Positions 19,876 to 50,263 of a DNA stretch of 51,902 nt are shown piece after piece. Numbering within the stretch: position 1 is the stretch's first letter; every line of letters begins with the position of its first letter. Under the pieces are notes generated by a model that saw only the letters and a list, made by a program, of their open reading frames with translations, searched no databases and was not told where the DNA came from. The position numbers and the translations under genes were made by a program. Origin of the DNA: a virus; the IMG/VR virus record IMGVR_UViG_3300033388_006813, positions 1 through 51,902 of that record. The stretch is one strand, 5' to 3'.

Positions 19876-19925
19876 TAGATTTCAAATTTACTTAATAACA
19901 TGATTATTAATACGGAGCTATCAAT

Positions 19926-23083: not shown

Positions 23084-23099
23084 GTAGGAAGGAAATAAT

Positions 23100-26886: not shown

Positions 26887-26891
26887 ATATA

Positions 26892-26915: not shown

Positions 26916-26951
26916 CTGAATATAAAAAGATAGTGTTTTTGGAGATATATC

Positions 26952-27122: not shown

Positions 27123-27469
27123 TGAAAATTATAAGAACAGCAAAATATGCTAATACATTTGAAGGATATGATCCTTATACCGTTGATTTTACTAAAGAAA
27201 GAGCAAAAGCAAAAGTAACAGATACAGATTCTTTGTTTAATGCTTTAAGTGATGCTATTGAAGCTATTAAAACCCCTAGTGCTAATGAGGGAAAATATTA
27301 CGACCAAGCATCTGTTTATAGAGCAGAATTAACTAGAAGAGGATATTCTCCCGAAGAGCAAGATAAAAGATTAGAAAAAATTCCAAGTCTCCATACAAAA
27401 CCAATGAGAGATTCTACGCCTACCACAGATTATCCTGAACTTGGAGATGCTACACTTGGAGCTTTTTAA
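27122..27469 (+). CDS. Unknown protein starting (V)KIIRTAKYAN
   Basis: 115 residues from GTG 27122, chosen because GGGGAGG (27108-27114) lies 7 nt before it; the longer reading would begin inside the zinc-ribbon gene. The N-terminus KIIRTAKYANTFEGYD again fits the shared tag, followed by an unrelated body that is helical (DSLFNALSDAIEAI, YRAELTRRGY). No family is known. It sits directly before the protease gene. Confidence 0.6.
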   Translation: MKIIRTAKYANTFEGYDPYTVDFTKERAKAKVTDTDSLFNALSDAIEAIKTPSANEGKYYDQASVYRAELTRRGYSPEEQDKRLEKIPSLHTKPMRDSTPTTDYPELGDATLGAF

Positions 27470-30400: not shown

Positions 30401-33400
30401 TATACTGAATCTATAACTCAAGCTCAAATAAGAGACCTTCTTAGTAAACATAAATTTATTGGTAATGTTGAAACTATTACTGAAGATCAACTTAGAAATA
30501 TGACTATGACTGATGGACTTAAGAGATGGGCTAGTTCAGATTATTCCGTATCTCTTATGAAAACAGCAATTAATACAATTGTTGATGCTGTTGTTAAATA
30601 TAAAAAATCTCCTAATGAGATAGTGAAGGCAGCTACTATTATTAATGACGATAGTGCTACAAAAGATAAAGCAGCTTTTTTGGCTGTTGTTAATTCTCTT
30701 CCTCAAAAGGCAGATGACAAAGAAGCGTTAACTCAAAATATAGCTTATTTCTGCAAGACAGCAGCTACTCATAATAAAATCTCAGGAATAGATGCTCTTA
30801 TATTGGCAGCTTCTGACAATGGTCAGTTTGCCATGAGAGCAGAAGATCTTTTTGATTCTATTTATCATGCTACAAATAACAAAACAGCATATAAGAAAGT
30901 ACAAGAAAAAGTTGCTAAAAGAATGGAAGATGATAGTACTAAAACTATTATGTCTAAAGCAGATGGTTTTGATAAAGCTCTTAAAATAATGGATAGACCA
31001 GAAGATGGCAAATATCAGATCAGAGCATCTGTAAGTGATGTTGATGCCCCTATTACAGATAAAGTTGCTTTCTTAGCAGGAGTTAAAAAACTCGCACAAG
31101 AAATGATTGACGATGACGGTGTAGACGCTTCTGCTATTATTAAGATAGAAGTTGGTGATGGTGGAGAACTGCTTATTGATATCCAAGAAGGAGCAGAAGA
31201 AACTGTTTGTCCTGATGATATAGGAGATATTATTGAAGGACCAGTTGAAGATATCGAAGCTGATAATAACGGTGAAGAAACAAATGATATGAAACCTATG
31301 GAAGGTGGAGATCAAGCAGGAATGGGAATGGGTCAAGGACAAGATCAGAATAGACCTTCAATGAACCCTATAGCAGCAGCAAAGTCTGAGATTAAACAAG
31401 CTCAAATGATGGGTGGAGAAATGGGTGGTCAAGGTGGAGCAGCACAAGCACCTGGAGCAGGAGCAGCATTACCAGGATCGCCTGGAGCAGAAGTTCCTCC
31501 AATGGAGAATTTCACAGAAGATCCAATGGCGGATGAAGAGGGTGGCTTCGATGAAGAAAATCTTGAGGCAAAACCTCCAGGATCTATTTGCCCAGTTTGT
31601 GGAAGTGATGATGTTGATATCATTTCTGGAAAAGGAAAATGTAATAACTGTGGTTCAGAAATGACATATAAAGTTGAAGTTAATGTTACTAAGTGGGAAG
31701 GTGTAACTCCTACTGGTGATGAGGCTGAAGAGCTTGGTGGACTTGGAGAGGGAGAAGGTTTTGAAATGCCTACTGAAGAGCCAGAGCTTGGAGCAGAAGA
31801 GCCAGGTATGGGTGGAGGAATGGCAGGAGAAGCTGGAATGCCAGCTATGGCTGCTTATACTCGTTTACTTCCAGAAGCACTTAAGAAAATTGGAAGTCAA
31901 AATATTATACTTGGATCAGTCAGTCCAATAACTGGAACTATAAATACTCTTAAAATGGATGATGAGCAGTATGTATGTTTAGACACTGGTACAAAATATA
32001 AAGTTTCTTGCATTGTTTCTAAAGATGGCAACAAGGCCTATGCACAGTGGGAATGGAAACCAAAAGTCGCTGGAGTAGAATGCCCATCTTGTTCGAGAGC
32101 AAAACAAAGATTTATTAAAGCTCTTTCTTCTGTAGAACTTACAGAAGCTAAATTTAATGAGTTAGAGCTTAAAGATAAAGTTGATATTATTGTAAAAATG
32201 AATAAGTCTGGAGCACTGATGAAAGTTGCTGCTAAAGAAGGTTCAGTAGTAGAAGATTATAAACTTGCTTATGGCAACTATGGAGATAAATTCCCAGTCG
32301 AATCTTGTATTGAGAAATTAGCACGTAGATTTGGAAAAGATGCTATCTGTTTGAGCGGACCAGATGAAGGTGAAAATCTTGCTGAGTCTGTATGTAATAG
32401 ACTTAAAAAGGCTGATGTTTATACTACTAAATTAGCAACAAAAGTTGCTTCGATTTGGTCAGATTGTGATGGAGATGAAGAGTGTATTACAGATCAAGTT
32501 AGAAATGGTTATTCATTAAGAGAATCAGCAGTAATTTGTACAACATTGAAATCTGCCATGGTTCAATCTGATTATATTTTTGCAGATCAACTTAGTGTTA
32601 CATCACAGATTATTGATGAAGAGCAAGATTCTATGGGAGAACCTGTTGATGATATAGGAATGGGAGAAGAAGAAGATCCATTCGAAAATATTGATGAAGG
32701 CATTGATGGTGGTACTGTAACAATCGAGCTTCCATCAGATGTTGCTGAACAACTTGGTTCTGCAGTGGATGAAGCAACGGGTGGAATCGGAGAAGAAGGA
32801 ATAGATGAAGGCGGAATAGGTGATGAAGGCGGAATAGGTGATGAAGGCGGAATAAGTGATGAAGCTCCAATAGAAGAAGTTGCGCCAGGTGATTTAGATG
32901 GTGGAGATATGAATTCTATGGAAGGTGGAGAAGTGCCTGTGGAAGGCGAAGAAGCCCCTATAGAAGAAGGTAAAGATATGACAATGTTTGATAGCGAAAC
33001 ACCAGAAGGCATGGGCGGTATTGGAGAGCCTTGTGATGATTCTTATGGCGGGGGCGGATCTGTTAAGATTACAGTTAATGGAGAACCAACAGGTGGCGGA
33101 TCAGCTTTTGCAGAAAAAAAAGAGGATTTTGAAAAAGAAGCTGGAAATGTAAATGATAATGATGGTATGGATTATAAGGAAGCCTTAATTATGAGTGGAG
33201 CAATTGGACAAGTTGGAAAGCCTCAAATGGATCTTTCTTCTGTTATCGCAGCTATTAATAAAACTGCGGGAGAAAAAGAAATTTCACAAGAGAAAGCACA
33301 AGACAGTCCCGATATAGGAACTTATACAGCTGGTGAAGGTGGAAGTGAAATGGGTCATGAAAGTGAAACCATTAGAACTCCACAAAAACCAAGTGTACCA

Positions 33401-35860: not shown

Positions 35861-36113
35861 TAAAATAGTTGTATATACTTTTTTTGTATATACGTTTAAA
35901 AAAGCATAACAACTTTTAGTTAAAGTTGTATATATGTTTTATAATTTTTCATAATAGATTTTATATTTATTTATAAAATAGTTGAAAAGTGAAAGATAAT
36001 ATTATAAAATGTATATATTATTTTTTTATTAAATGTGAAAAAATAAAAAAGGAGTTTAGGTCATGTAGAAGGAATATTATAATAGAGCTTATATTTGTTC
36101 AGGAGATTTTAAT
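35861..36113 (+). promoter_or_regulatory. AT-rich control region with promoter (TTGAAA, 17 nt, TAAAAT)
   Basis: The -35-like TTGAAA lies at 35982-35987 and the -10-like TAAAAT at 36005-36010. The 36 nt from 35982 are repeated with four differences at 37121, in front of the methyltransferase. Upstream, TTGTATATA elements occur at about 35868, 35888 and 35926, possibly regulator sites. A ribosome site CAGGAG precedes the endonuclease ATG. No gene is visible in this stretch. Confidence 0.6.
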
Positions 36114-37124
36114 ATGAGAGAAGAGCCACATTACACTAATCTGTTAACAAAAGAATTTTTTGAAGAATATTATATTAACCAAAAAATGTCTTATCCTAAA
36201 ATAAGAAAAATGTTATTAGAGCAAGGATACAATATTCATAATGGGACTTTGCATAAGTATGCTGAAAGATTAGGAATTGGAAGAGATCGTTCAGAAGCAA
36301 GAAGAAATTTATTTCCATGTTCTTTAGATTATAAAGTAAATTATATACAAGATGATATGATAGAATTTATTGATGGTTTCTTATTAGGAGATGGGGGAAT
36401 AAATTTTGATAAAAGAAGTATAAATAATCTTATAGCCAGATTCCGTTGTGGTGTAGAATATGAAGAATTTTGTAGTTATTTAATGGAACCTTTTAAGAAA
36501 TTGAGTTCAAGTGTAAAAAAACATAAGGCAAAAAGTATGAAGCAAGGATTTATGTTTAGCGGTAGTACTAGTAATCATCCAGATATTTATAAACAATATT
36601 TAAGATGGTATCCAGAAAATAAAAATGGGCAAAGAATTAAACAGCCTCCAGAAGATGTAAGAATAACTAAAAATTCTGTTCTTATGTGGTATCTTGGTGA
36701 TGGATCTGTGGTCGTAAAAAATAATACGATTGCTACTCGATTATCTACAGACGGGTTTTCAAAGGTTAAGGTTGAGATGTTAGTAGATAAATTACAACAA
36801 ATTGGTATCAAATGCTATAGGAATAATGAGAATCGTATTAGAATTAATTCAAGGGGTATTCCTGCCTTCTATAATCTTATTGGGGAAAAAAGTCCTATCA
36901 AATGTTATAATTATAAATTTGATAAAATACCATTTTGGAGATTTGAGAGCAAGAGGATGAAAGAAGTCGCAGAAGAATTAGATATAAATTATCAAAAATT
37001 AGCATATATGGTTAAAATAGGCAAAATACCTTGTTTTAGATTGAGTGAGAAGGGTAGACCTAGATTTTTACCAAACCATATTGTTAAGATTAAAAAAATG
37101 GTAGAATCTGGAAAACTTTCTTGA
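36114..37124 (+). CDS. Free-standing LAGLIDADG homing endonuclease with HTH domains
   Basis: 336 residues. Two LAGLIDADG-type helices are visible: IEFIDGFLLGDGGIN (about residues 82-96) and VLMWYLGDGSVVV (about 196-208), the pattern of a monomeric enzyme. The N-terminus looks like a small HTH (SYPKIRKMLLEQGYN, TLHKYAERLGIG). The C-terminus looks like an excisionase or MerR-type HTH (MKEVAEELDINYQKLAYMV, RPRFLPNHIVKIKK). It would cut a specific site in related phages lacking it and so spread by repair. It is flanked by two copies of a promoter-like repeat, consistent with insertion between the capsid gene and the methyltransferase. Confidence 0.85.
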   Translation: MREEPHYTNLLTKEFFEEYYINQKMSYPKIRKMLLEQGYNIHNGTLHKYAERLGIGRDRSEARRNLFPCSLDYKVNYIQDDMIEFIDGFLLGDGGINFDKRSINNLIARFRCGVEYEEFCSYLMEPFKKLSSSVKKHKAKSMKQGFMFSGSTSNHPDIYKQYLRWYPENKNGQRIKQPPEDVRITKNSVLMWYLGDGSVVVKNNTIATRLSTDGFSKVKVEMLVDKLQQIGIKCYRNNENRIRINSRGIPAFYNLIGEKSPIKCYNYKFDKIPFWRFESKRMKEVAEELDINYQKLAYMVKIGKIPCFRLSEKGRPRFLPNHIVKIKKMVESGKLS

Positions 37125-37149
37125 AAAGTGAAAATAAATATTATAAAAT
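37121..37149 (+). promoter_or_regulatory. Promoter of the methyltransferase gene (TTGAAA, 17 nt, TAAAAT)
   Basis: TTGAAA at 37121-37126 overlaps the endonuclease stop; TAAAAT is at 37144-37149 with a 17-nt spacer. The 36-nt block 37121-37156 is nearly the same as 35982-36017. The start codon at 37180 follows with TAAGGA. Confidence 0.6.
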
Positions 37150-37179
37150 ATATATACGTTTAATATAAGGAATATTTAG

Positions 37180-38373
37180 ATGCCAAAAATAAAAAAAACA
37201 GATAACATTATTTTGCGGGTAACATCTTCTGATCATAATTCAATTCGAATTAAATCGAAGTTATTTGGTAAGAGCAAAAGTAATTATATTCGTCATTGTG
37301 TTTTTTCTCATTGGGAAAATCTTGAAAGTACTTCTCATTTTAAGGAATTACTGAGAATGTACAAAGAGGGGGATAAAGAAATAAAAGATGAAGTTGTGGA
37401 ACTTTTATTTCATTATTATAGGGAGAATGGATTTCCTCATAATAAATTAAATGATATTCAAAAAGAAAATAGATTGAAGAGAGTAATAAATAGTAAAAAT
37501 GTATTATTAGAAGACAATCATTTACAGATGAATCCTCAAGGAATAGATTTGGCGAATCATTTTCATCCTCATATGATGGAAGCATATTATAGTATTGGAA
37601 CAAATTCTCCTTTTGAGACTTTTAATGATGATGAAAAGTTGAAAGATTGTATAAATAGGTGGTTAGAGTTGGAAAAAGTTCCTAATCATGCGGGGATGAG
37701 AAGAATTTTAAAAACGAGGAATGGAACTAAAGGTGTAGTTAATTACAAACCCACGATAGCTAAATTTATTTATGATAGATATTGTCCAGAGAATGGTAAG
37801 GTTTTAGATCCTTGTGCTGGATATGGTGGTAGATTAGTTGGTTGTATCGCATCTAATAAGAATATATTTTATCATGGAATAGATCCTGTTGGAGAAACGG
37901 CTGTAGGGAACTCCAGGATAGCTTCATTTTTTTCAAAACAATATGATGTGTTTATGGGTCGAGTTTATAATTATCGCTTTAGATTCGATCAGGAGTGTGC
38001 TGAGGAGGTTATGCCTAATATAAAAGAGAGGTATGATTTAGTGTTTACGAGTCCTCCGTATCATTCTCAGGAAATATATTCAGATAATATTTCTCAAAGT
38101 TCTAGTAAGCACAAAGAGTATGAGAATTGGTTGAGGAATTTTTTATATGTTATAGTTGATGAGAGTAAAAGAATTTTAAAAGATGATGGAAAATTAGTAT
38201 TGAATGTAAAGAATTTACAGAAGAAAAAGATAGCAGATGATTTGTGTAAGTATTGTGAAAAGGATTGGGAGTTAGAAACTACATATCATATGAGATTAAG
38301 TAATAATGAATTTAATCGTAAGGGTGATAAGATGTTTCATACTGAACCAATATTTGTGTGGAAGAAGAAATGA
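37180..38373 (+). CDS. DNA methyltransferase (N4-cytosine/N6-adenine type) with N-terminal RHH-like part
   Basis: 397 residues. Motif I is DPCAGYGGRLVG (about 208-219), the S-adenosylmethionine site; motif IV is TSPPY (about 291-295). TSPPY is more usual for N4-cytosine enzymes, but related N6-adenine enzymes also use it. The end (ESKRILKDDGKLVLNV) fits the Rossmann methylase core. The first about 45 residues (ILRVTSSDHNSIRIKSKLFG, SNYIRHCVF) resemble a ribbon-helix-helix unit as in MobC-like proteins. No partner nuclease is next to it, so protection of phage DNA or regulation is likelier than a restriction pair. It is followed by a strong terminator. Confidence 0.85.
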   Translation: MPKIKKTDNIILRVTSSDHNSIRIKSKLFGKSKSNYIRHCVFSHWENLESTSHFKELLRMYKEGDKEIKDEVVELLFHYYRENGFPHNKLNDIQKENRLKRVINSKNVLLEDNHLQMNPQGIDLANHFHPHMMEAYYSIGTNSPFETFNDDEKLKDCINRWLELEKVPNHAGMRRILKTRNGTKGVVNYKPTIAKFIYDRYCPENGKVLDPCAGYGGRLVGCIASNKNIFYHGIDPVGETAVGNSRIASFFSKQYDVFMGRVYNYRFRFDQECAEEVMPNIKERYDLVFTSPPYHSQEIYSDNISQSSSKHKEYENWLRNFLYVIVDESKRILKDDGKLVLNVKNLQKKKIADDLCKYCEKDWELETTYHMRLSNNEFNRKGDKMFHTEPIFVWKKK

Positions 38374-38423
38374 TTTTATTGAATCATATTAATTATTATG
38401 TCACAGATGTTGTAAAATAGCAA

Positions 38424-38473
38424 AAAAGCGGGTTAATAGGCTAAGAAGCGGGTTTAACGACCCGCTTTTTTTA
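38424..38473 (+). terminator. Strong rho-independent terminator
   Basis: AAGCGGGT (38446-38453) pairs with ACCCGCTT (38460-38467) around six nt, followed by a seven-T run. A second AAAAAAGCGGGT just upstream (38424) could pair with the same arm, giving an alternative, longer hairpin. Confidence 0.88.
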
Positions 38474-38552
38474 TTTAATGGGAGAAAAAAATTTCTAACT
38501 GGGTATAGGTAGCATTTTTATTTATCAAAAAAAATAATATTTAAAAAAGGTT

Positions 38553-38581
38553 TTGACTTTTGTTGTGGGATATGATATAAT
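38553..38581 (+). promoter_or_regulatory. Sigma70-type promoter of the cas operon
   Basis: TTGACT (38553-38558), a 17-nt spacer, and TATAAT (38576-38581) preceded by TG, an extended -10. The leader runs about 58 nt to the cas5 ATG, with GGAGG at 38635-38639. It is the best consensus promoter in the window. Confidence 0.8.
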
Positions 38582-38645
38582 ATCTTCTATAGTGAACTGC
38601 AAAATACTACAGAGATATTAAAATTTTATTTATTGGAGGCATAAA

Positions 38646-39311
38646 ATGAAGTCAGAAGAAATTATTAAGTTATTAGGTAGTAGGGTTCATTATTCTATTT
38701 CGATGGAAATATCAGGTCCATTTGCAATGTTTGCTAGACCTGATACTGGGAGCGAGAAGACGAGTTATCCTTTCCCAACTTTTTCAGCAGCAAAAGGTAT
38801 ATTTGAATCTATATTATATATGCCTAATGCTATTGTTGTTCCTGTAAAAGTTCAAATTTGTAATCCAATAAGATATCAGTCTTATGCATTTAATTATAGA
38901 GGGGAACTTCGTAAATCAGAATTAATTAAGAAAAATAATACTTGTCAAATAAAAAGTACAATTCTTGTAAATCCTTGTTATAGGCTTTTTGCAAAAGTAA
39001 TAAAGGCGGATGAGATTGTTTCAACCCCTAAAAGATATAAAGGTATTAATCATGCCCATGCATATCAGGCACAATTCAATCGTCGTCTAAAAAATAGTAG
39101 AAATTATAGAACACCATGTTTAGGTTTGTCTGAATTTTTAGCTTCTTATGTCGGCATATTCAGAGAAGATACAAAAGTTCAAGAGCATATTAATTTTATT
39201 ATAGCCTCAATGACACTATGTTGTTTTGATTCTCTTAACAGAGGTGAGTACAATCCCTCATCAGTTCAAAATGTGAAAATCGAAAATGGAGAATTATGTT
39301 ATGTTAAATGA
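38646..39311 (+). CDS. cas5: Cas5, type I-C-like (Cas5d)
   Basis: 221 residues. GPFAMFARPDTGSEKTSY, then FPTFSAAKGIFESILY, then ICNPIRYQSYAFNYRG match the order of Cas5d motifs; later QFNRRLKNSRNYRTPCLGLSEF matches the Cas5d pattern of FxRRL, PYLG and EF. Cas5d binds the crRNA 5' handle and, in type I-C, cuts the precursor RNA in place of Cas6. The conserved Tyr after Glu-x-x-Ser is present (Y41). The Lys-His pair I recall before FxRR appears as Ala-Tyr, with two His just upstream (INHAHAYQ), so the catalytic set may differ. The next gene starts inside its 3' end. No cas6 is in the window. Confidence 0.85.
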   Translation: MKSEEIIKLLGSRVHYSISMEISGPFAMFARPDTGSEKTSYPFPTFSAAKGIFESILYMPNAIVVPVKVQICNPIRYQSYAFNYRGELRKSELIKKNNTCQIKSTILVNPCYRLFAKVIKADEIVSTPKRYKGINHAHAYQAQFNRRLKNSRNYRTPCLGLSEFLASYVGIFREDTKVQEHINFIIASMTLCCFDSLNRGEYNPSSVQNVKIENGELCYVK

Positions 39312-41244
39312 AATGAAATTAATTGCAGATAAAATGGAAGAATTAGGCATAGGTGAGGTTCAGATGCATTCTATGATATCGCCTAGTCCAAGATCACCAA
39401 AGACTCCTAAGTTTAAAGTGTGTATTGGTGCTGATGGAAATATTAGTTCGGTAAATCTCGTTGCCCCAGAAGTTTGGAATACTTATTCATATATCTACAA
39501 GGATGCACATAATCAGTACCCAATTATTAAAATAAAAAATATTTTAGGTGATGATGGTACAATAAAAGAAAAGGATGTTGTAAAATTTATTGGCAAATTT
39601 AATAGAATGGATACAATGTTGCAAGAATTGTTAACTAGAGATAGTGAAACTGAATCACTTTTTTTGCTTTCAGAGAGAATTAATGAAGTAGAAAATCATG
39701 AAAAATTCTTAAAAGAAATTATAGAGAAATCATTAGAGATTCTACCAGATGAGTCAGAAGATAGTAAAAAATTTACCAAGAAGGATGCTCTTAATGAAAT
39801 GTATATCACTTTAGAGATTACAGAATACAGTGATCTTAATATACATCCTGTGAATAGTACTGAAATTATAACAATTATTAGTGATGCTTTGAATCAAATA
39901 GAAGAAGATGTAGTATCTGAGAGTGGCTCAGGAGATAAAACGGATATTTTTGGTAATAGTTTTTCAGAATCTACATCTCTTCCGCAGTTAAGTTTAGACA
40001 GAACTAAATTTTACTCGTATAGTAGGAATCCATTTTCTAAGTGTTATAGAAGTTACAATGTTGCTGGGAATGATGCCTGTCCAATTTCTCCAGCTTCAAA
40101 AGCATTTATTTTTGGAAAGATGCAATATCTAACTAAAGGTAAGAATAAGGGGTTATATTGGGATTCACATTCTAATAAGGATGGTACTAGAACAGCAACA
40201 ATTGTTTTTGCTCCTATAAAAGAAACAATTTTATCTGATTTGCAGGAGTTGTTAGAGATTGGTGGAACTCAAGAAAGGGTTAACAAAGAAATTGATGAAA
40301 AGGTTAAGGAGAAATCTTCTGGCATCATATCTAATATTAGAGGTAGTAGTGCTTATGCTAATAATGAAAAAGTTCATATTCTAATTTTTAGAGTGCCATC
40401 AAATGGACCTTCGAGCTTGGTTTTATCAGATATGATCAATATTAAAGATTTGGTAACTTTTTCTAAACGATGGATAGAGGGATGGGATAATTATGATGAT
40501 GGTGAATATACTGGCATCTATGTTAAAAAAGGTGTTAAGAAAAATTTGTATTCAAAGATAAGCATTGAAAGTATGCGTAGAATTACCAACAAAAGATGGA
40601 ATAGAAGTGCATCTTGTGATGCTGGTAAAGAATTGGTTCGTGATTTTATCAATACAGAAAATATAGTGAGAATGTTTATGGGTGATAAGAATGAAACTAA
40701 AAAAATTGCTCATGTTTTCGGGAAATATCAAATAAATTTATTGATTGATATAACAAATAGAATTATGAATAGGAAGTTGTATAATTTAAAGAGTTCTCGT
40801 TTAGATATCTTTGGTTTACCCGTAGCATTTGGAGAAGTTCTGTATCAACTTGGTATTTATAAGGAAGATTATGAAAAAAATGTTCCTTATATGGTTGGTC
40901 AAATGTTGGCATGTATTAGCAAAGTACAGAGAAGTGTTTTAAAATCTGAAGGAAGAGATGACAAAAATATGCCTACTGAGCTTACAGGTACAAAACATAT
41001 TTATTTAGCCTTATCTAATCCTGAGAGAGCTATGAATTTGGCTCTTACTAATGCTAGAATATATTTAGCAAAAGCAAAAGCGAAGAGAGTGGCTGAATAT
41101 CGTCTTTCTGGAAAATCTAAGAGTCATTATCATTATTATTTATTTGCACAAGCATCTAGAGTTATTTTAGATAATGAGTTTTCTGATTATTGGAGTGATA
41201 CCGATAGGATGTTAATTGCATTAGGATATTTTCAAAATAAGTAA
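39301..41244 (+). CDS. cas8: Cas8, divergent type I-C-like large subunit (Csd1-like)
   Basis: 647 residues from ATG 39301, which has GGAG 9 nt before it; ATG 39286 is an alternative. It overlaps cas5. FKVCIGADGNISSVNLV near the start and a Cys-containing NVAGNDACPIS segment with KAFIFGKMQYL fit the Csd1 layout. The C-terminal helical region VGQMLACISKVQRSVL (about 532-547) through LALSNPERAMNLAL to LGYFQNK corresponds to the part that makes the small subunit in type I-C. The protein would recognise the PAM and hold the Cascade complex. Similarity is pattern-level, and the family is assigned mainly from neighbours. Confidence 0.75.
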   Translation: MLNEMKLIADKMEELGIGEVQMHSMISPSPRSPKTPKFKVCIGADGNISSVNLVAPEVWNTYSYIYKDAHNQYPIIKIKNILGDDGTIKEKDVVKFIGKFNRMDTMLQELLTRDSETESLFLLSERINEVENHEKFLKEIIEKSLEILPDESEDSKKFTKKDALNEMYITLEITEYSDLNIHPVNSTEIITIISDALNQIEEDVVSESGSGDKTDIFGNSFSESTSLPQLSLDRTKFYSYSRNPFSKCYRSYNVAGNDACPISPASKAFIFGKMQYLTKGKNKGLYWDSHSNKDGTRTATIVFAPIKETILSDLQELLEIGGTQERVNKEIDEKVKEKSSGIISNIRGSSAYANNEKVHILIFRVPSNGPSSLVLSDMINIKDLVTFSKRWIEGWDNYDDGEYTGIYVKKGVKKNLYSKISIESMRRITNKRWNRSASCDAGKELVRDFINTENIVRMFMGDKNETKKIAHVFGKYQINLLIDITNRIMNRKLYNLKSSRLDIFGLPVAFGEVLYQLGIYKEDYEKNVPYMVGQMLACISKVQRSVLKSEGRDDKNMPTELTGTKHIYLALSNPERAMNLALTNARIYLAKAKAKRVAEYRLSGKSKSHYHYYLFAQASRVILDNEFSDYWSDTDRMLIALGYFQNK

Positions 41245-41273
41245 AAGTTATTATAATATAGAAAGAGGTTATT

Positions 41274-41651
41274 ATGTTTGATAAAGAATTTTGTGGAAAA
41301 ATTGGACAGTTATTAAAAAAGGCTGATAATATGCAAATGTATTATTATGAGTCACACAATAAACTTAATGATATTCCTAAAGAATTAATTGGGGGAAAGT
41401 CATTATCTATGGTATTAAATAGACCCAAAGATGGTATATTATTTTTACAAAAATTAGCAGATCCATTTGCTCGTTTTTGTGATGCCAAAAGAAAAAAACG
41501 AAGTAATGATTGGAGAATTGCTTATGGTAGAATGATGTTGTTTACAAAACTTCTTAATGACGTTCTCGAAAGAGTGGATAGTGAAGAAGATTGCTGTGTT
41601 AGCACTTCTTCTAAAAATATAATTATTTTAGAATATTTAATGGAGATTTAA
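41274..41651 (+). CDS. cas11: Stand-alone Cas11-like small subunit, duplicate of the Cas8 C-terminus
   Basis: 125 residues, helical. It aligns to the Cas8 C-terminal region just upstream: IGQLLKKADNMQ with VGQMLACISKVQ, IPKELIGGKSLS with MPTELTGTKHIY, LNRPKDGILFL with LSNPERAMNLA, then a basic DAKRKKR with KAKAKR. In type I-C the small subunit Cas11 is normally made from an internal start inside cas8. Here a separate gene with its own ribosome site (AAGAGG) follows cas8 by 29 nt and precedes cas7 by 1 nt. It would line the Cascade belly. The function is inferred from the duplication and position. Confidence 0.7.
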   Translation: MFDKEFCGKIGQLLKKADNMQMYYYESHNKLNDIPKELIGGKSLSMVLNRPKDGILFLQKLADPFARFCDAKRKKRSNDWRIAYGRMMLFTKLLNDVLERVDSEEDCCVSTSSKNIIILEYLMEI

Positions 41652-41652
41652 A

Positions 41653-42576
41653 ATGAAGAAAAGTAAAAAATTAGCCAAACGAGCATTTGGTATCGTAGCA
41701 GTTGAAGTAGTTTTGTCTAATCCTAATGGTAATCCCGATGAGGATGATATGCCTCGTCTTACCAATGATGAGTGTGGTCTTATTACACCAGTTTGTTTTA
41801 AGCATCGTACAAGGGAATTGTTGGAGGATCATGAGGGAGTTACCTGGGAATATTTGCAAGGCAAGTTGGGTCTTGACGATGATAGTTTCCATATCTGGGA
41901 ATCTGCTTGTAAAGGATACGATGTTAATTCGCCAATAGAGGCTAAAGAACATTGGTCTAAGATGGTTAAGGAAGAGGGAGAAGAATCTCTTTTGAAGCGT
42001 TTTTGGGATATGAGGGTATTTGGTACTACTGCTCTTGAAACAAAAGGCAAAGATTCTTTAAACTTTAAGAGGACAGGTTGTGTTTCTGTTTCTCCTCTTG
42101 TATCTTTACTTCCGATTGAGGTTATTAATCAGACAATCACAAAGGGGAATCCTCTTGAATCAAAGCTTATGGCTCAAGGTCAAGGGACAATAGCTCCTTT
42201 TGGATATAAGGTTGTAAGGCATGGGCTGTACATAGGTGTATATGTTATTAATCCTTCGAAAGCTCATTATACTGGTACAACTGAACAGGATATTGATGTC
42301 TTCAAGGAATTAATCAAGCATTCATTCAGTAATTCTACGGCTGCATCAAGGTCCGGAGTGAGAGTAGTTCAGATTGTACATGCTGAACATGATAATCCTC
42401 TTGGTTCATTTAATGAGTCAACATTATTTGAGTTTTGTAAACCTTCAACGGATCTTACACTTCCATCAATCTCTATGGATGATTATAACTTGAAATCTTT
42501 AGATGATATTAAGAAAGCTTTTCCAGATATTAAGGTAGAGATGTTAAGCAATACTTATTCGGAGGCATTAGTATAA
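41653..42576 (+). CDS. cas7: Cas7 (Csd2-like) Cascade backbone subunit
   Basis: 307 residues. Classic Cas7 signatures: EVVLSNPNGNPDEDDMPR (about 18-35), then GLITPVCFKHRTRELL, then RFWDMRVFGTTAL, and GYKVVRHGLYIGVYV. Cas7 polymerises along the crRNA spacer. The start follows GGAGATTTAAA. The stop TAA overlaps the cas3 ATG by one base (TAATG). The length is close to usual type I-C Cas7. Confidence 0.92.
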   Translation: MKKSKKLAKRAFGIVAVEVVLSNPNGNPDEDDMPRLTNDECGLITPVCFKHRTRELLEDHEGVTWEYLQGKLGLDDDSFHIWESACKGYDVNSPIEAKEHWSKMVKEEGEESLLKRFWDMRVFGTTALETKGKDSLNFKRTGCVSVSPLVSLLPIEVINQTITKGNPLESKLMAQGQGTIAPFGYKVVRHGLYIGVYVINPSKAHYTGTTEQDIDVFKELIKHSFSNSTAASRSGVRVVQIVHAEHDNPLGSFNESTLFEFCKPSTDLTLPSISMDDYNLKSLDDIKKAFPDIKVEMLSNTYSEALV

Positions 42577-45089
42577 TGTCAGAACATATTAATAACAACA
42601 GCGTGTCCTCTTCGGAGGACACGTTGTTTGATTATGTTGCTCATTCAGACGATCCAGAGAATGGGATTAATTTTACTCAGTCTTATTATTCACATGCTAG
42701 CGAAGTGAGAGACAGAGCTTTGCGATGTTTTGATGAAATGGTAAAATATATGTCATTGGATAGTAGCGTTATATCTGCAGCGAGGGAAGTATTAGAAATA
42801 GCAGCGGAATATCATGATCTTGGTAAATTGGATTTAGTATCTCAAGAAATTATAAAGAAGAGGCATCATAATGAGAATGGTAGTAAAATAAGTATGCTTA
42901 ATCATGTTGATGCTGGTTCTGCTTTTCTTCTTCAAAAATATAGTGAGATAAAAAAATCAGGTCTTAGTCTTGCTCTTCGGATTAATTATCTTATTGCAGC
43001 TGTATTGATTGATGCACATCATATTGGGATATTGAATAAAATTTTAAATGAGAACAGAGAAGAACGAGATGCGAAATTATATCCATCATTGGGTAGTATT
43101 GTTGCTAATATTGATATTCTCAGAAGCGATGTCAAAATGTTAAAAAAATATCCATATTATAAGCATGTTGTAGATGATAAAAACAAAACAGTAAAAGAGT
43201 ATGTAGATGAAACATTATCTGAATTATTAGAAAGACATTATAAATGTTTTGAAAACAGTAAAAAAAGTATAGAATCATTATACATTCCAATACTTGATCA
43301 TTCTATGCTTTTAAGATTTATGTTATCGTGTTTAGTAGAGGGCGATCATGGGGATACCTCTCGTCATTATGGTGGGATTGCTCCTAATGTAATAACATTT
43401 CCATTAAGAGCAGACGAAAGATTAACACATCATATGATGATGTACGATAATTTTCCTTTGGCTGAGACAGAAAAAGAAAGAGAAAAAAATAGAGTAAGAA
43501 GCCTTATACACAAAGATTGTGAAGAAGTAAGTTTGGGTCACAATTTTTATGGAATTTATGCTTTTCCAGGTTATGGAAAAAATCATTCTGGTGATTATTT
43601 AGCTTTAAGACTATGTAGAGAGCATGGTTTAAGAGGAGTTGTGAAGATGGCTCCATACAATGATATTTTAACACAAAATATAAGAGAGAGCAAAGATTTT
43701 TTAATGTTGCCTGGAGAAAAAAGTGGAGAAGTTATAGGGGAACATTACCAAGACGCTAGACATTGGGAAAGGTCTCAAAAGGAAGGTATTAATTATAAGT
43801 TGTTAAAGCATTACAGTACTTTATGGAATTGTCCTTTTGAAGTTGTATCGGTTGTCCAGTTTTTTGAGACTATGGCTAGTAATTATCCATCTAAAATAAG
43901 AAAACTTCATCAACTTACTGGTAGAGTTATTATTATTGATGAGTTTCATATTGCTGTTCCTATAAAAATGTTACGTCAAACTTTGAGGTGGTTGAAATAT
44001 TTGGTAGATAACTGTGGATGTAAAGTTATTCTTATGTCTGGATCTTCTGTAAAATTTTGGGAAATAGAGCAACTAAAATCATGCGAAATTGAAGTAAAAG
44101 AAGTTTTATCTTGTGAGTCTAATCATGTTATGAACGAGTTAGAGGTTGGTAGGGTTAGTTATTCAAGAATAGAGGAACAGTTTAATAGTTTTCAACAATT
44201 AGCAGAAGTAGTAATGAGTAGACCTGGACCAAGAGTTGTAGTATTTAATACTGTTTTATCGGCAGCTATTTTTGCTAATTATATAAGGTTACAATATGGA
44301 AGAGAAAAAGTAGAACATATATCTACCGCTCTTACACCGAAAAATAGAAAGACAAAATATAAAGTTATTAAAAATAGACTTAAAGATAGAACTGATGATG
44401 ACTGGGTTTTAGTATCTACATCATGTATTGAAACTGGAGTTAATTTTTCATTCAGAACTGGTTTTAGAGAAAATAATTGTCATTTAAGTTTATTGCAACT
44501 TGGTGGTCGAGTGAATCGTGGAAATGAATACATTGAATGTTGCGATGTGTTTGTATTTAATATGGATCATGAAGCAATGGGCACTACTAATAATCCTGCA
44601 TTTAATGCTTCTATTAAAGTACATAATGATCTTTTCGATGTTGATCGTATTGGGTACGGATATTGTACTGAATCTATTAGAAGAGAGATAGTAGAACGTA
44701 ATAAAGATCTAGAGTATTTTACAGAGATAGAATTTGAAGAAGAACAACTTTGTTTTGGCTCAGTCGCTGATTTATATAAAATTATTCCTCGTTCATATAA
44801 ATCAATTGTAGTTGATCCAGAAGTGATAGCTAAGATTGACAATGAAGATATAGTTAGATATCGTGAGTTGACAGAGAATAGTATTCAGATGTTTTTTACT
44901 AAGTTAGATAGAGCTGATTACCAGGATAATATTGATTTTGTGAATGAAGATAGAATTCCTAATGATAAGTATAAAGAAGCAAAAATAAAGGCTCCTAAAG
45001 AATTTAATGTTTGGACAGGAGAATATGATCCTGATTTCTTAGGATATATGAAAGAAATATTAATCAGAATGGGGCATAGTGTCGAGTAA
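42576..45089 (+). CDS. cas3: Cas3 HD nuclease-helicase
   Basis: 837 residues. The HD nuclease has AAEYHDLGKLD (H80, D81), a following HVDAGSAF, then DAHHIG and GDHGDTSRH. The helicase has Walker B DEFH (455-458), motif III LMSGSS in place of the usual SAT, motif V VSTSCIETGVNFS and motif VI LGGRVNRGNE. Walker A is unusual: FPGYGKNHSG, with Asn after K335 where Thr or Ser is expected. Cas3 is recruited to Cascade-bound DNA and degrades it. The gene is the last of the operon and is coupled to cas7. Confidence 0.9.
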   Translation: MSEHINNNSVSSSEDTLFDYVAHSDDPENGINFTQSYYSHASEVRDRALRCFDEMVKYMSLDSSVISAAREVLEIAAEYHDLGKLDLVSQEIIKKRHHNENGSKISMLNHVDAGSAFLLQKYSEIKKSGLSLALRINYLIAAVLIDAHHIGILNKILNENREERDAKLYPSLGSIVANIDILRSDVKMLKKYPYYKHVVDDKNKTVKEYVDETLSELLERHYKCFENSKKSIESLYIPILDHSMLLRFMLSCLVEGDHGDTSRHYGGIAPNVITFPLRADERLTHHMMMYDNFPLAETEKEREKNRVRSLIHKDCEEVSLGHNFYGIYAFPGYGKNHSGDYLALRLCREHGLRGVVKMAPYNDILTQNIRESKDFLMLPGEKSGEVIGEHYQDARHWERSQKEGINYKLLKHYSTLWNCPFEVVSVVQFFETMASNYPSKIRKLHQLTGRVIIIDEFHIAVPIKMLRQTLRWLKYLVDNCGCKVILMSGSSVKFWEIEQLKSCEIEVKEVLSCESNHVMNELEVGRVSYSRIEEQFNSFQQLAEVVMSRPGPRVVVFNTVLSAAIFANYIRLQYGREKVEHISTALTPKNRKTKYKVIKNRLKDRTDDDWVLVSTSCIETGVNFSFRTGFRENNCHLSLLQLGGRVNRGNEYIECCDVFVFNMDHEAMGTTNNPAFNASIKVHNDLFDVDRIGYGYCTESIRREIVERNKDLEYFTEIEFEEEQLCFGSVADLYKIIPRSYKSIVVDPEVIAKIDNEDIVRYRELTENSIQMFFTKLDRADYQDNIDFVNEDRIPNDKYKEAKIKAPKEFNVWTGEYDPDFLGYMKEILIRMGHSVE

Positions 45090-45219
45090 TATAGTGAGTT
45101 CTTTTATAATTAAATATAGAAAAATGGAAGTACAGGGGAGTTTAATGTGCAGAAATAAGCATTTTTTAATTGATATTTTTAATATAAACATCTGTAGATA
45201 ATATAGTTATGAATCTACA
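45090..45219 (+). promoter_or_regulatory. CRISPR leader with inverted repeat at the leader-repeat junction
   Basis: 130 nt AT-rich, between cas3 and the first repeat. ACATCTGTAGAT (45188-45199) and ATCTACAGATGT (45213-45224) are a perfect 12-nt inverted repeat around 13 nt. Its right arm includes the first five bases of repeat 1. An 18-codon ORF at 45145 behind AGGGGAG is also present. The leader may act in transcription of the array; no integrase genes for adaptation are nearby. Confidence 0.65.
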
Positions 45220-46903
45220 GATGTCTCTCATAGTAATATGAGAGTGGATTACAACGAACTCTTTCCAGGTCATGTTATATTCTATTGATGTCTCTCATAG
45301 TAATATGAGAGTGGATTACAACCATAGTTTGTTCCTGCTGTTCTTATACTTTGATGTCTCTCATAGTAATATGAGAGTGGATTACAACCCTGCTCGCCTT
45401 TTTCACCTTTGTCACCTTGATGTCTCTCATAGTAATATGAGAGTGGATTACAACAAGGAGAACTGGCTATGTGTCAAAATATTTGATGTCTCTCATAGTA
45501 ATATGAGAGTGGATTACAACGGACAGCAGGACAGATACTTTACTATAAACGATGTCTCTCATAGTAATATGAGAGTGGATTACAACAGATATTAGGGGAT
45601 GGAATATATAGCTTTAGATGTCTCTCATAGTAATATGAGAGTGGATTACAACTAACATTATTACGTCAAGATTTATTTCAATGATGTCTCTCATAGTAAT
45701 ATGAGAGTGGATTACAACATAGGAAGTTTGTGGTTCCTCACCCATCGAGATGTCTCTCATAGTAATATGAGAGTGGATTACAACACAAGTCATTATCTGT
45801 CTCTCTCTTGTTTTGATGTCTCTCATAGTAATATGAGAGTGGATTACAACTTGTCTATCCTTATAAGGTCATCACACGATGATGTCTCTCATAGTAATAT
45901 GAGAGTGGATTACAACTGCAAAGATCAGGGCAAGATGTTGATGAAGATGTCTCTCATAGTAATATGAGAGTGGATTACAACTTGGTAGATACAGTCGATT
46001 TATGAAACAAGATGTCTCTCATAGTAATATGAGAGTGGATTACAACACAACTCTTCGCTGATATTCACTCAAGCCGGATGTCTCTCATAGTAATATGAGA
46101 GTGGATTACAACTACCCTAGATCTTCCACTAAACAGACCAGGATGTCTCTCATAGTAATATGAGAGTGGATTACAACAAAGACGTGCAGGACACTCTCGC
46201 TATATTTGATGTCTCTCATAGTAATATGAGAGTGGATTACAACTGACGACCACGAACCAAGTCTACAAGCGGAGATGTCTCTCATAGTAATATGAGAGTG
46301 GATTACAACGGGAACTGTCAAAGACCCCGACTCTGGGCAGATGTCTCTCATAGTAATATGAGAGTGGATTACAACAAAGCATTTAACATAGTGGCCATAG
46401 CAATAGATGTCTCTCATAGTAATATGAGAGTGGATTACAACCCTCACTCCCGATGCGACAAGCATCAATATTGATGTCTCTCATATAGTAATATGAGAGT
46501 GGATTACAACAGCAGTAAGACAGATAAATGGGCAACCCCTGATGTCTCTCATAGTAATATGAGAGTGGATTACAACATAATAATGAGTCTGTCCGTTACT
46601 AATGCTGATGTCTCTCATAGTAATATGAGAGTGGATTACAACAGAAGATTCCCTACACTAAAACAAAAGTATGATGTCTCTCATAGTAATATGAGAGTGG
46701 ATTACAACAACAAAATCTATTGCTGCCTGATAGGCTGATGTCTTTCATAGTAATATGAGAGTGGATTACAACCAATAATTGCCAGAGACTGCAAATCTGA
46801 TGGATGTCTCTCATAGTAATATGAGAGTGGATTACAACGTAGTTTTATGTAGTTTAGGTAATTCTGTTGATTCTCTTATAGCGATATGAGAGTGGATTAT
46901 AAT
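45220..46903 (+). CRISPR. CRISPR array: 26 repeats (36 nt), 25 spacers (28-31 nt)
   Basis: The repeat is GATGTCTCTCATAGTAATAT followed by GAGAGTGGATTACAAC. Starts: 45220, 45287, 45353, 45419, 45485, 45551, 45617, 45683, 45749, 45815, 45881, 45946, 46011, 46077, 46142, 46208, 46274, 46340, 46406, 46473, 46541, 46607, 46673, 46737, 46803, 46869. Repeat 20 (46473-46510) has a 2-nt insertion in its loop, repeat 24 has one C to T change, and repeat 26 is degenerate, marking the trailer end. Spacers are mostly 30 nt. Within each repeat CTCTCATA and TATGAGAG pair around GTAA, leaving an 11-nt 3' part (TGGATTACAAC), the type I-C handle length. The orientation is + strand, the same as the cas genes. 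Confidence 0.98.
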
Positions 46904-47056
46904 GAAGAATCTGATGTTCCTGATCTTCCTCGTAGCGGAAGACCAAGTTCAAGTAGATGTTCAGGAGGTAGAGGAAATAGACAGTCGTTTAAGATCCGGT
47001 GGGCGCGACCACGAATAAATTTTTATACTTTTATACTTTTATATAAACCCTGTTTT

Positions 47057-47093
47057 TGCACAGTAACATTAACATTGTTACTGTGCATTTTTT
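47057..47093 (+). terminator. Terminator of the CRISPR array transcript
   Basis: TGCACAGTAACA and TGTTACTGTGCA form a perfect 12-bp stem around seven nt, followed by six T. It lies 154 nt after the last repeat. Confidence 0.9.
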
Positions 47094-47412
47094 ATGTTAG
47101 AATGCTCTCATATAATCATTTTTTAATATAAGGTGTCAGTGCCCATAAATACGGAGTTAATTGAAATGGGGGCTGTAGAGGGTGTAAAAAAAGCCAACAC
47201 AGCAACGAACTATGTTGGCTAAAGAAAGGAGTAAGATTATATATGCTTTTTTTATACCATATTCATAATCACTTTTCAAACATTTTTTCAAAAATAAAAA
47301 AGGATTGTTTTGGGTAAAGTCGAATATTTATAAGGATGAAAAGGTTAACAATTTTAAAGCCTTTGAACGAGGTAATATAAGAAAAAAATATAATGAGCCT
47401 TTTCATCTATTT

Positions 47413-47440
47413 AACCGTCACTCATAGTGGCGGTTTTTTT
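47413..47440 (+). terminator. Rho-independent terminator before the fibre genes
   Basis: AACCGTCACT and AGTGGCGGTT pair (one G-T) around CAT, followed by a run of T. It isolates the downstream fibre genes from upstream transcription, or ends a small RNA. Confidence 0.85.
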
Positions 47441-47536
47441 ATTGTCATTTCTTTAATAAAACAAGGATTTTTTGTTTTTTTAACGAAAATAAATACCAGT
47501 GCATAAAGAAGAATTAATAATATAAGAGAGTAGCTC

Positions 47537-50263
47537 ATGGCAGATTTTCAATCAGTAAGAGATTCTTGGAAAATAACTTGTATCGTAAATCCTCCTCCTG
47601 GAGGATTAGTTATTAGTGATATACCTAATCAAGTTATATTCACTGCTAATGGTCAAGAGATTGATGTTCTTCTTCCAGCTACTTATCCTAATAATACATC
47701 TTCTCATATCTCTGCTTCTGCGATTATAAGAGGATATGTAGTAAATCAGCAAATTGTATTAGGAGAATATTTACATACTCATGATGAGTTAGCGGATTCT
47801 ATTCATACTCATACTGGATTGAGTACTTTAACAGCAGGAGCAACTTCTGATGCTGATCTTTTACATACTCATAACAATTTAGCAAAATTATCCGACTTGA
47901 ATGGTTTAGGTGGGTTATGGGGAGGCAAAGTAGATTTAAGTGATTACGTGACTAAGAGTGGTAACGTATCTCAATTAAATGATATAACATCGGCGGGAAG
48001 TGCAATAGAATCTGCTGTTTCTGCATCTCATGCTCAAGATCATACTATCTTAGAACATTTAGATGGTGTATATCCATTTACTATGACTAATTATAAAAAA
48101 TTAGTTAATGGTAGTAATGCTGATTGTTGTCATACTCATTCTGGTAGTGGGGAGCATAATGATTTAAAAGGTTTGAATGAGGGAGATTATCTTCATCTTA
48201 CTGCTGCTGAATATACTGCTTTAGGGAGTGTTTCAAGTTCGCATAATGATTTAAGTGGTTTGAATGTGGGAGATTATTTACATTTAACTGCTGTTGAGTA
48301 TGCTGCTTTACATGCTGAATCACATACAATAGTAAGCCACAGTGATACTACTGCTACAGGTGCTGAATTAAATACTCTTACAGATGGTGCTACTAGTAAT
48401 GCAGATTTATTACATGGTCATGACGCTGATAATATTGATATATTAGATGCTGGTAGTTATTATACTGGTACAGAAACAGAAGCTGCTCTGCAAGAGATTG
48501 GTCTTACTCTTTCTTCTCTTGCTCCACCGACTCCATCGTTTTTAGGAGATAGGGGAGCAAGCACAGGTATAGATAGAATAACTACATCAGGTAGAACGGC
48601 TATGCTTACTTGGGAAAGTGATGATTTTTTACCATATGTTGATGTAGATGGGATTGGTGCTTGGGTTCAGGTCAGTGATGCAGAAGGAATTGATGATTCA
48701 TTTTCAGAGTCTGGTGATCGTGGAGGAGTTATAAATGACTCTACTAATTTTACTGGTAAATTAAATGAAGATGTTGTGGCTGATACGGGATCTCCTACTC
48801 CTGCTTATGTAGCAAATTCTTTTGCTGAAGGGAGTACATCTGGAACAAATATTCTTATTTTAGAAGTAAATGGTGTTGAATTTGATGGAGGTGGAGCAAC
48901 TAATGATTCTACAATAGATTTAACCAATATTTCTGATCAAGATACCACAACTAGTACAAATAGTGGGCTTAATATAGGGGCTCAACAGCAAATTAAATTT
49001 CCTAATGGTGATAATTTTGCTTCTTATTACCGTACAGGAACATGGAAGGTAGATTCTAGTGATATGAACAATGGTTGGAATTATGTAAGGGTTATTCACA
49101 GAATACAAGGAGAGTCTGACTTAACAACTAATTATGTTTCATGGGTGGTTGACGATGATACTACTGATACTGTTTACTCTACTCCAGTGCTAGATAGTTT
49201 GAGTTTGACTGGTGATCAATATTTATCAGGAGTTCGTTATTATACAGGTGGAACAGCTGCTTATGCTGTAGATATAGATAATGCCTTTAAAAATACATAT
49301 CAAGATGGAAATGTAATAACTTTTAATTGTACTAATGGATCAATACCTAATGCAGATTTAGGCAATAGCGGAGGGGACCAAACACTTCGAGTAGCAGTAA
49401 CGAATGCTGTTTTTACAATTAGTAGTGGTAGGAAACTTGATGCCACTATAGATGTTAAAACTAGTGTAGCTAGAACATTTGATGCTAATGAAGGTAATGA
49501 TGACGGAGCAACTTCTTTTGCCTCTATCGTTGGGTTATTGATAGACGATCAGATAGCATCTCCAAGTAATGAGGGAGATACCGAAGAAGGTTTTAATGCA
49601 GAGGGATATAGGATGCATACAGGAATAGTTTTGACAAATACAAATTATGGTAGCGGAACAAATGCCAGTGACTATGATTGGGATAGCACACAGAGTTTGC
49701 TTCCAACAAATAATAATTACGATGATGGACTTTTACAATATGGTGGCAAATTATCATATCCAAAGAGTACTCCTGATAGTGGTGTAACAAATGGAGATTT
49801 TAGCAAAGCAGGGACAGGATATGAAGAAGGATATGCTGGCAATCCTAATTACAGCACAGCATCAGGAGATAGGGTATATTTGAGATATTTTTATGTAGGT
49901 GCATCGAAATCTAATTTTGTATTTACTATTAGTGGAGCTAATGCTACTGGATTTACTGATGTAGGAACTGGTGCAAATGGGCAGGATCTTACATTAGAGT
50001 TATTAGCTCCTAATACTACTAGTGATGCTACTGGATCGCCTCCTTCTGGCAATATAGAATTTAAAGATTGTTATACAAGTCATACTGCTATTGAGGATGA
50101 TGGTTGTTATACTCTTGGAACAAGAGATATAGATACGACCGATTGGGCATGTACTTTAGGGACAAGATCAACAGCAGATAGTGGCAATGCTATAGTTATA
50201 AGAATAACAGCGTCAGATGCATGGACGGGTTATATAGAATCTATTTCAGTGGTGGCTTCATAA
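47537..50263 (+). CDS. Tail fibre or appendage protein with His-x-His motifs
   Basis: 908 residues. The N-terminal part (ITCIVNPPPGGLVISDIPNQ) looks like an attachment domain. Residues about 75-300 have repeated His pairs (LHTHDE, IHTHTG, LHTHNN, CHTHSG, LHGHDA), which in fibres can bind metal ions in a trimer. Two repeats follow the HNDL-x-GLN-x-GDYLHLTA-x-EY pattern, typical of phage fibres. The C-terminal half is beta-rich and Thr/Asp/Gly-rich, probably receptor binding. The stop TAA overlaps the next ATG. No ribosome site is clear beyond GAGAGTAGCTC. Confidence 0.8.
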   Translation: MADFQSVRDSWKITCIVNPPPGGLVISDIPNQVIFTANGQEIDVLLPATYPNNTSSHISASAIIRGYVVNQQIVLGEYLHTHDELADSIHTHTGLSTLTAGATSDADLLHTHNNLAKLSDLNGLGGLWGGKVDLSDYVTKSGNVSQLNDITSAGSAIESAVSASHAQDHTILEHLDGVYPFTMTNYKKLVNGSNADCCHTHSGSGEHNDLKGLNEGDYLHLTAAEYTALGSVSSSHNDLSGLNVGDYLHLTAVEYAALHAESHTIVSHSDTTATGAELNTLTDGATSNADLLHGHDADNIDILDAGSYYTGTETEAALQEIGLTLSSLAPPTPSFLGDRGASTGIDRITTSGRTAMLTWESDDFLPYVDVDGIGAWVQVSDAEGIDDSFSESGDRGGVINDSTNFTGKLNEDVVADTGSPTPAYVANSFAEGSTSGTNILILEVNGVEFDGGGATNDSTIDLTNISDQDTTTSTNSGLNIGAQQQIKFPNGDNFASYYRTGTWKVDSSDMNNGWNYVRVIHRIQGESDLTTNYVSWVVDDDTTDTVYSTPVLDSLSLTGDQYLSGVRYYTGGTAAYAVDIDNAFKNTYQDGNVITFNCTNGSIPNADLGNSGGDQTLRVAVTNAVFTISSGRKLDATIDVKTSVARTFDANEGNDDGATSFASIVGLLIDDQIASPSNEGDTEEGFNAEGYRMHTGIVLTNTNYGSGTNASDYDWDSTQSLLPTNNNYDDGLLQYGGKLSYPKSTPDSGVTNGDFSKAGTGYEEGYAGNPNYSTASGDRVYLRYFYVGASKSNFVFTISGANATGFTDVGTGANGQDLTLELLAPNTTSDATGSPPSGNIEFKDCYTSHTAIEDDGCYTLGTRDIDTTDWACTLGTRSTADSGNAIVIRITASDAWTGYIESISVVAS

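Follow-up and report, generated by a model that had tools for sequence, protein, structure and literature searches.

The virus record IMGVR_UViG_3300033388_006813 of IMG/VR carries a type I-C CRISPR-Cas (clustered regularly interspaced short palindromic repeats and associated proteins) locus in which the small subunit of the effector complex, Cas11, is encoded by a gene of its own. The whole record was analysed and is referred to here as the window (51,902 bases, classed as linear); it is a fragment of a larger genome. Type I-C systems have no small-subunit gene, Cas11c being translated from inside cas8c (PMC7684278, PMC13199841). In the window this internal start has been lost, and the separate cas11 gene most likely replaces internal translation, because assembly of the type I-C Cascade complex reportedly requires Cas11c (PMC11899642). 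Probably a huge phage acquired the effector module and array of a bacterial type I-C subclade without the adaptation cassette, and carries them as separately promoted cargo between a methyltransferase gene and a tail-fibre gene. The locus comprises five intact, closely spaced open reading frames (ORFs) in the order cas5-cas8-cas11-cas7-cas3, with the array next:

38646..39311, + strand: cas5 (Cas5c/d; expected to be the subunit that processes CRISPR RNA, or crRNA); PADLOC Cas5c, 6.4e-24
39286..41244, + strand: cas8 (Cas8c large subunit); PADLOC PDLC01562 Cas8c, 4.5e-46; Cas11-like C-terminal domain at about residues 528-652
40861..40875, + strand: lost internal Cas11c start; codon 530 is GAA (Glu530) instead of ATG, with the Shine-Dalgarno (SD)-like AAGGAA retained
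41274..41651, + strand: cas11, free-standing small-subunit gene, 125 amino acids (aa); the Cas8c profile above, hit at its C-terminus (5e-8)
41653..42576, + strand: cas7 (Cas7c backbone); Pfam PF05107, 3.4e-37; PADLOC Cas7b/c, 3.5e-39
42576..45089, + strand: cas3 (HD nuclease and superfamily 2 helicase, with T336N and D623N); PADLOC Cas3c, 7.4e-75
45090..45219, + strand: leader, 130 nt, from cas3 to the first repeat
45220..46903, + strand: CRISPR array, 26 repeats of 36 nt with 25 different spacers

Judged by its Cas8c, Cas5c, Cas7c and Cas3c proteins the locus is of type I-C, as a variant and not a plain member, because the separate cas11 gene breaks the published rule that Cas11c comes from an internal cas8c start. 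The signature protein Cas8c matched its PADLOC profile yet fell short of the Pfam Csd1 cut-off (E 0.02), and Cas5c likewise matched in PADLOC yet fell short of the NCBIfam cut-off. The Cas7c and Cas3c (HD plus helicase) profiles were matched, several NCBIfam cut-offs not being reached. An earlier note, made from the letters of the window, had described a phage-borne, type I-C-like system with interference genes and an array, and had proposed classification by Cas profile models; the PADLOC matches to Cas5c, Cas8c, Cas7b/c and Cas3c, together with the phage structural genes described below, bear this out.

The small subunit was compared with that of 56 relatives having both cas8 and cas7, namely 55 loci from species genomes and L088, a scaffold from human gut that is catalogued as phage. 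All 56 have an in-frame ATG at the same column of the cas8 alignment. An SD match of 4 nt or more precedes it in 52 and one of 5 nt or more in 44; among 459 other internal ATGs the shares are 18% and 2.8%. The sole ATG at SD spacing in the phage cas8 (40871) is out of frame and meets a stop after 23 codons, and the phage cas11 gene has an SD-like AAAGAGG of its own at 41262-41268. A separate cas11 ORF between cas8 and cas7 was seen in 0 of the 56 relatives, in which the two genes, as read, overlap or lie at most 42 nt apart. The Cas11 protein aligns end to end with residues 528-652 of the phage Cas8, which keeps its own Cas11-like C-terminal domain, and it is 13-24% identical to the Cas11c of the relatives. 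A hidden Markov model (HMM) of the 56 relatives' Cas11c domains, built with the phage cas11 excluded, matched the C-terminal domain of the phage Cas8 at 1.1e-10 and the phage cas11 at 6.7e-9. With the same model, no further ORF shorter than 300 aa passed E<0.1 in L088 or the genome loci. The 23 viral loci yielded nothing convincing; one 53-aa frame there reached E 0.085 in L175 and L176. The AlphaFold2 model of Cas11 is a helical bundle (mean predicted local distance difference test score 93.7). In VIA its nine top-scoring structural matches, at Z 8.9-11.0, all come from type I-C Cascade; the row after them is unrelated and scores 8.0.

Duplication of this cas8 and capture from another type I-C system were compared as origins of cas11, and the approximately unbiased test favoured neither (p value 0.307); both branches are very long. 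The idea that the free Cas11 has kept conserved residues lost by the Cas8 domain was dropped after a by-eye comparison of the sequences. The earlier note had spoken of a "cas11-like" gene, and the ORF is indeed present; the externalisation of the gene after loss of the internal start is what that label had not named. A free-standing cas11 in type I-C was not found in the literature searched, which included the available text of the 2025 classification (PMC12669027) and left subscription papers (McBride 2020 and Al-Shayeb 2022 among them) outside its scope, and externalised Cas11 in type I-C is provisionally regarded as new.

The phage nature of the record is indicated by genes for a terminase (3e-24), a portal protein (4e-40) and a major head protein (8e-62), all PHROG matches. 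IMG/VR was searched with the capsid protein and the best 80 of 96 relatives were kept. One of the matches is a second, near-identical record, which agrees with the window at 100% over 29286-51241 and looks like the same phage. Apart from this record, the nearest capsid among the best 80 of 96 relatives (93% identity) is found in a record of 548 kb, and further capsid relatives sit in records of 494, 476, 371 and 334 kb, which suggests that the source is likely a huge phage. The cas operon has a GC content of 0.318 against 0.334 in the rest of the window, the cas genes matching the phage base composition. A chimeric assembly was considered and is unlikely, given the similar GC and third-position GC, the identical second record and the flanking phage genes, which are present in relatives.

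The bacterial connection was established through a search with an alignment of the window Cas5 and one relative, which gave 62 loci in species genomes of many phyla. The usual order in this subclade is cas5-cas8-cas7-cas3-cas4-cas1-cas2-array; plasmid loci L091-L093 have a cas3-first order, unlike the subclade. The phage locus shares the subclade order minus cas4-cas1-cas2, and just 130 nt lie between cas3 and the first repeat, where the relatives mostly carry these three genes. Members such as L103, L106, L112, L114, L121 and L152, among others, have a Cas5 38-55% identical to that of the window (the 55% being from a partial match), and share with it the order cas5-8-7-3 and the type of Cas3 motif III. 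They differ from the window in that they mostly have cas4-1-2 before the array, possess the internal cas8 ATG, lack a cas11 gene and have spacers of 33-36 nt. The cas1 gene was counted by hand in the 27 loci with at least 4 kb beyond cas3 (L099 was dropped, its cas3 match being upstream of cas5) and was present in 22; the five loci without it (L124, L137, L138, L143 and L147) also have no array in the DNA covered. These five come mostly from gut Bacillota, show neither cas1 nor array in the 4 kb past cas3, and in L138 apparent housekeeping genes follow.

Profiles for Cas1, Cas2, Cas4 and Cas6 (Pfam models only) had no match in the 52-kb record, the Cas6 model being a weak test with matches in just 2 of 14 control genomes. 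Cas1 was likewise found in 0 of 50 capsid-relative records, the near-identical record included, and in 0 of 16 records made up of 15 with type I-C Cas7 matches and the 548-kb record; any of these records may be a fragment. The claim that the system has no adaptation genes accordingly stands for the record; for the whole phage, of which the record is a fragment, their absence is suggested by analogy with these relatives. Type I-C loci that have interference genes alone have been published from huge phages before, so this feature is not new.

The array holds 25 spacers, as the earlier note had claimed. Of its repeats 23 are identical over all 36 nt; two nucleotides are inserted in repeat 20, and repeat 24 carries one change. 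The last repeat (46868-46903) is degenerate, and the leader is therefore placed on the cas3 side. A 12-bp inverted repeat in the leader (45188-45199 and 45213-45224) extends into repeat 1; folded together, the leader end and repeat 1 give z -5.66. The repeat itself folds into an 8-bp hairpin (z -2.1). Spacers measure 28-33 nt, mostly 30. Among 27 arrays of subclade relatives the repeats are 32-37 nt long and the spacer modes 33-36 nt, L112 being without a mode. The dimensions had been called unusual for type I-C, the usual values being taken as about 32 nt for the repeat and 34 nt for the spacer; a 36-nt repeat proved ordinary within the window's own subclade, and it is the 30-nt spacers that are short. 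The repeat-spacer unit of type I-C is about 66 nt, similar to that of the window. No exact copy of the repeat occurs in genome_contigs, which represents 84,980 species by one genome each; in viral_contigs its pattern was matched exactly solely in the near-identical record, and its core is unlike the repeats of the subclade relatives. Assignment of a host through repeat identity was tried and abandoned for want of any exact match beyond that viral record.

Comparison of the spacers with the window and the capsid-relative loci (near-identical record excluded) gave at best 15 nt, and comparison with 50 whole records gave nothing better than E 0.096 outside the phage itself. Against GenBank phages spacer 3 alone matched, to the tail-fibre genes of several phages, best at 28 of 30 nt in a Vibrio phage (E 0.02). 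The plasmid search, run with 24 of the 25 spacers (spacer 3 excluded), yielded one 21-nt match (E 10), and single-spacer scans of IMG/VR with two of the 25 (spacer 3, and 22 nt of the 31-nt spacer 1) recovered only the window's own record. The reverse strand of spacer 3 reads GDKGEKGEQ in one frame, a collagen-like repeat, and its likeness to collagen-like tail-fibre DNA is a hint only, because collagen-like codons recur by chance.

Cas3 retains its HD nuclease residues, the Walker-A lysine, motif II and motif VI. Its motif I (Walker-A) reads GKN (T336N) against GKT in all 54 other sequences, and its motif V reads GVN (D623N), Asp being present in all 52 others with a residue at that position (the remaining two have gaps). 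Near-invariant columns are changed at 16 of 89 positions in Cas3, 20 of 62 in Cas7, 6 of 21 in Cas8 and 1 of 25 in Cas5, and the helicase changes may be part of a general divergence. The more diverged Cas3 (22/89) of a capsid relative, L056 (IMGVR_UViG_3300019487_000022, 123.8 kb), retains both the motif I Thr and the motif V Asp. Thr is also retained at motif I in the phage Cas3s of L162 (IMGVR_UViG_3300005613_000001, 527 kb) and of L191 (G044, a 476-kb record). Asp is retained at motif V in L162; the pattern used did not locate motif V in L191. On the residues concerned, it is plausible that the Cas3 motor is weakened and DNA shredding reduced. The listing of cas3 as an interference gene in the earlier note agrees with the Cas3c profile match; the two changed helicase residues had gone unmentioned there. 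A sister relationship of the window and L056 Cas3s is not claimed: support is 99/99, but long branches meet, identity is 27%, and L056 shares equally many rare residues with L091.

Were the locus expressed, its pre-crRNA would be cut by Cas5 at the repeat hairpin, and a Cascade of Cas7, Cas5, Cas8 and Cas11 would assemble around the crRNA, with Cas11 coming from the separate gene now that cas8 has lost the internal start. The complex would then locate matching DNA and recruit Cas3. The most likely targets of the spacers are rival phages and other mobile elements sharing a cell with the phage.

Several points weigh against an acquired, working effector with a replacement Cas11. No spacer search produced a full-match protospacer, so that the use of the array is unproven, and the departures in Cas3 and Cas7 possibly reflect reduced activity or decay. 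The separate cas11 is known from just one natural sequence, the second record looking like the same phage. For a helical bundle, VIA Z scores of 9-11 are modest, the alignment behind the model included Cas8 domains, and Foldseek on the same model gave nothing significant (best E 0.49). Taken further, the changed helicase residues, the degenerate last repeat and the lack of targets found would fit a decaying remnant; this is improbable in view of the five intact, closely spaced ORFs, the 23 of 26 identical repeats, the conserved Cas5 and a second record with an identical locus. Equally improbable is that the 125-aa protein stands outside this Cascade, as a decoy blocking a host type I-C Cascade or as an unrelated helical protein. 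A phage protein, AcrIF3, is known to mimic part of Cas8 (PMC11656645), and the 125-aa protein is diverged (13-24% identity to the relatives' Cas11c); on the other side, its gene is part of the cas operon in the only system to have lost the cas8 internal start, the type I-C Cascade reportedly needs Cas11c, and an HMM made without the protein recognises it at 6.7e-9.

More weight, though still a minority share, goes to the proposal that the system silences or nicks its targets and does not shred them: with HD intact and the helicase altered in motifs I and V (T336N, D623N), Cas3 would translocate poorly, and targets would be blocked or nicked while the DNA of the shared cell was mostly spared. 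The unchanged HD site, the constancy of the Thr (54/54) and Asp (52/52) in other Cas3s, and the retention of both residues in L056, of the motif I Thr in L162 and L191 and of the motif V Asp in L162 speak for it. The Walker-A Lys and motifs II and VI, however, are retained, and 14 other near-invariant positions are changed as well, as might occur through fast general divergence. Somewhat less probable is spacer acquisition by the phage, either through cas1-cas2 elsewhere in its genome, the record being a fragment, or through a host type I-C adaptation complex acting in trans, as reported for plasmid type IV-A systems (PMC11656645). The 25 different spacers and the degenerate distal repeat suggest past growth of the array. 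Neither the 50 capsid-relative records nor the set of 16 contained Cas1, however, and the repeat is absent as an exact match from the genomes of 84,980 species, with a core that differs from the repeats of its relatives. More doubtful again is a broader picture in which the phage has remodelled the effector, with a freed Cas11 dosed and evolving apart from Cas8, 30-nt spacers, and a live nuclease with a weak motor, for non-shredding, pre-programmed silencing or nicking of rival phages.

Acquisition of a bacterial effector module and array, with cas11 in place of the internal start, thus remains the preferred account, and may be set beside known systems. The type I-C system of Desulfovibrio (Nitratidesulfovibrio) vulgaris resembles the window in its Cas5c, Cas8c, Cas7c and Cas3c, in lacking Cas6 and in a hairpin repeat with a similar 3' end; it differs in its order, cas3-5-8-7-4-1-2, and in making Cas11c from an internal cas8c start (PMC7684278), where the window has a cas11 gene and no cas4-1-2. 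Huge phages are known to carry CRISPR systems without adaptation genes, one of them a type I-C variant that has a Cas5d-like protein (PMC7162821; also PMC11656645, PMC13037316). That variant (Al-Shayeb et al. 2020, PMC7162821) is like the window in having a Cas5d-like protein instead of Cas6 and, as far as the 52-kb record goes, no Cas1-Cas2; its carrier is a huge phage, as that of the window probably is. It is unlike the window in that another helicase replaces Cas3, where the window has a Cas3 with HD and helicase domains. The 527-kb record L162 has the same kind of effector (Cas7 35% identical) and no Cas1 in the record; unlike the window, it has the order cas5-8-7-array-cas3, intact Cas3 motifs I and V, and an in-frame ATG with an SD-like AAAGG in the Cas11 start region, without a cas11 gene.

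Cas12m has been described paired with an I-C-like Cas3 (Altae-Tran et al. 2023, PMC10910872). Such Cas12-Cas3 hybrids share the type I-C-like Cas3 with the window, whose effector is in contrast a multi-subunit Cascade with no Cas12. Two capsid relatives bear on this arrangement. In L056 (11818-18616) an array with 36-nt repeats lies downstream of the capsid gene, and a 1137-aa Cas12-like protein (PADLOC Cas12h 1e-15; PDB Cas12j19/Cas12X 1e-11) is encoded with an overlapping type I-C-like Cas3 (4.5e-84); this makes a Cas12-Cas3 pair in what is probably a huge phage. L191 (6915-14726) encodes a 1119-aa Cas12-like protein (PDB Cas12j19/Cas12X 3e-15), with 26 array repeats, and its Cas3 gene (Cas3c 5e-65) overlaps the Cas12-like gene by 4 nt. 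The two Cas12-like proteins align well over just about 150 aa (27% identity).

The surroundings of the locus and its candidate control elements are as follows:

37180-38373: DNA methyltransferase gene, upstream neighbour of the CRISPR-Cas locus
38443..38470, + strand: terminator-like hairpin dividing the locus from the upstream methyltransferase gene; by consensus match alone
38553..38581, + strand: sigma-70-like promoter, TTGACT-17-TATAAT with TG before the second hexamer; 11/12 matches, by consensus alone
42597..42628, + strand: strong UUCG-loop hairpin within the opening codons of cas3; z -4.24 for 42560-42660
47057..47087, + strand: terminator-like hairpin 3' of the array; by consensus match alone
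47537-50263: fibre gene, downstream neighbour; named by position and by the earlier note, profile searches giving no match

The earlier description of one operon amid virion genes, with a methyltransferase upstream and a fibre gene downstream, agrees with the ORFs at these places and with the terminase, portal and head genes in the record. The interval from methyltransferase to fibre gene is 149 nt (L013), 842 nt (L012) and 4.6 kb (L007) in relatives and 9.2 kb in the window. The near-consensus promoter does precede cas5, at 11 of 12 matching positions, yet promoter-like sites overall are barely commoner than in shuffled sequences (59 found, 50.3 expected). The UUCG-loop hairpin might damp the expression of Cas3 relative to Cascade. 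Rfam gave no match within 36000-48000.

Elsewhere in the window several small genes at 13345-27469, between the terminase and the protease-scaffold gene, open with similar tags, MKIIxTxKYxKIA or NWYKKAQ, which we take to be reminiscent of the capsid-targeting sequences of phage T4. The portal frame (23100-26486) appears to contain an intein and a nuclease-like end domain (PHROG: thymidylate synthase family at residues 387-527, phrog_503 at the end), and the protease-scaffold frame (27494-34279) is, by eye, intein-bearing in appearance. Poly-serine-like repeats occur at the end of the window and inside its first gene. The second record has 72 bases fewer, and the L002 match to the window has gaps, the difference in length probably lying in a poly-serine-like repeat.

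The locus is a natural exception to the stated type I-C rule, and the need for internal translation, like the ratio of Cas8 to Cas11, may be tested on it. It likewise supplies a naturally occurring Cas3 in which the helicase motifs are altered and the HD site is intact. The passage from a gene within a gene to a separate gene would be a concrete case of a phage rewiring a borrowed immune complex.

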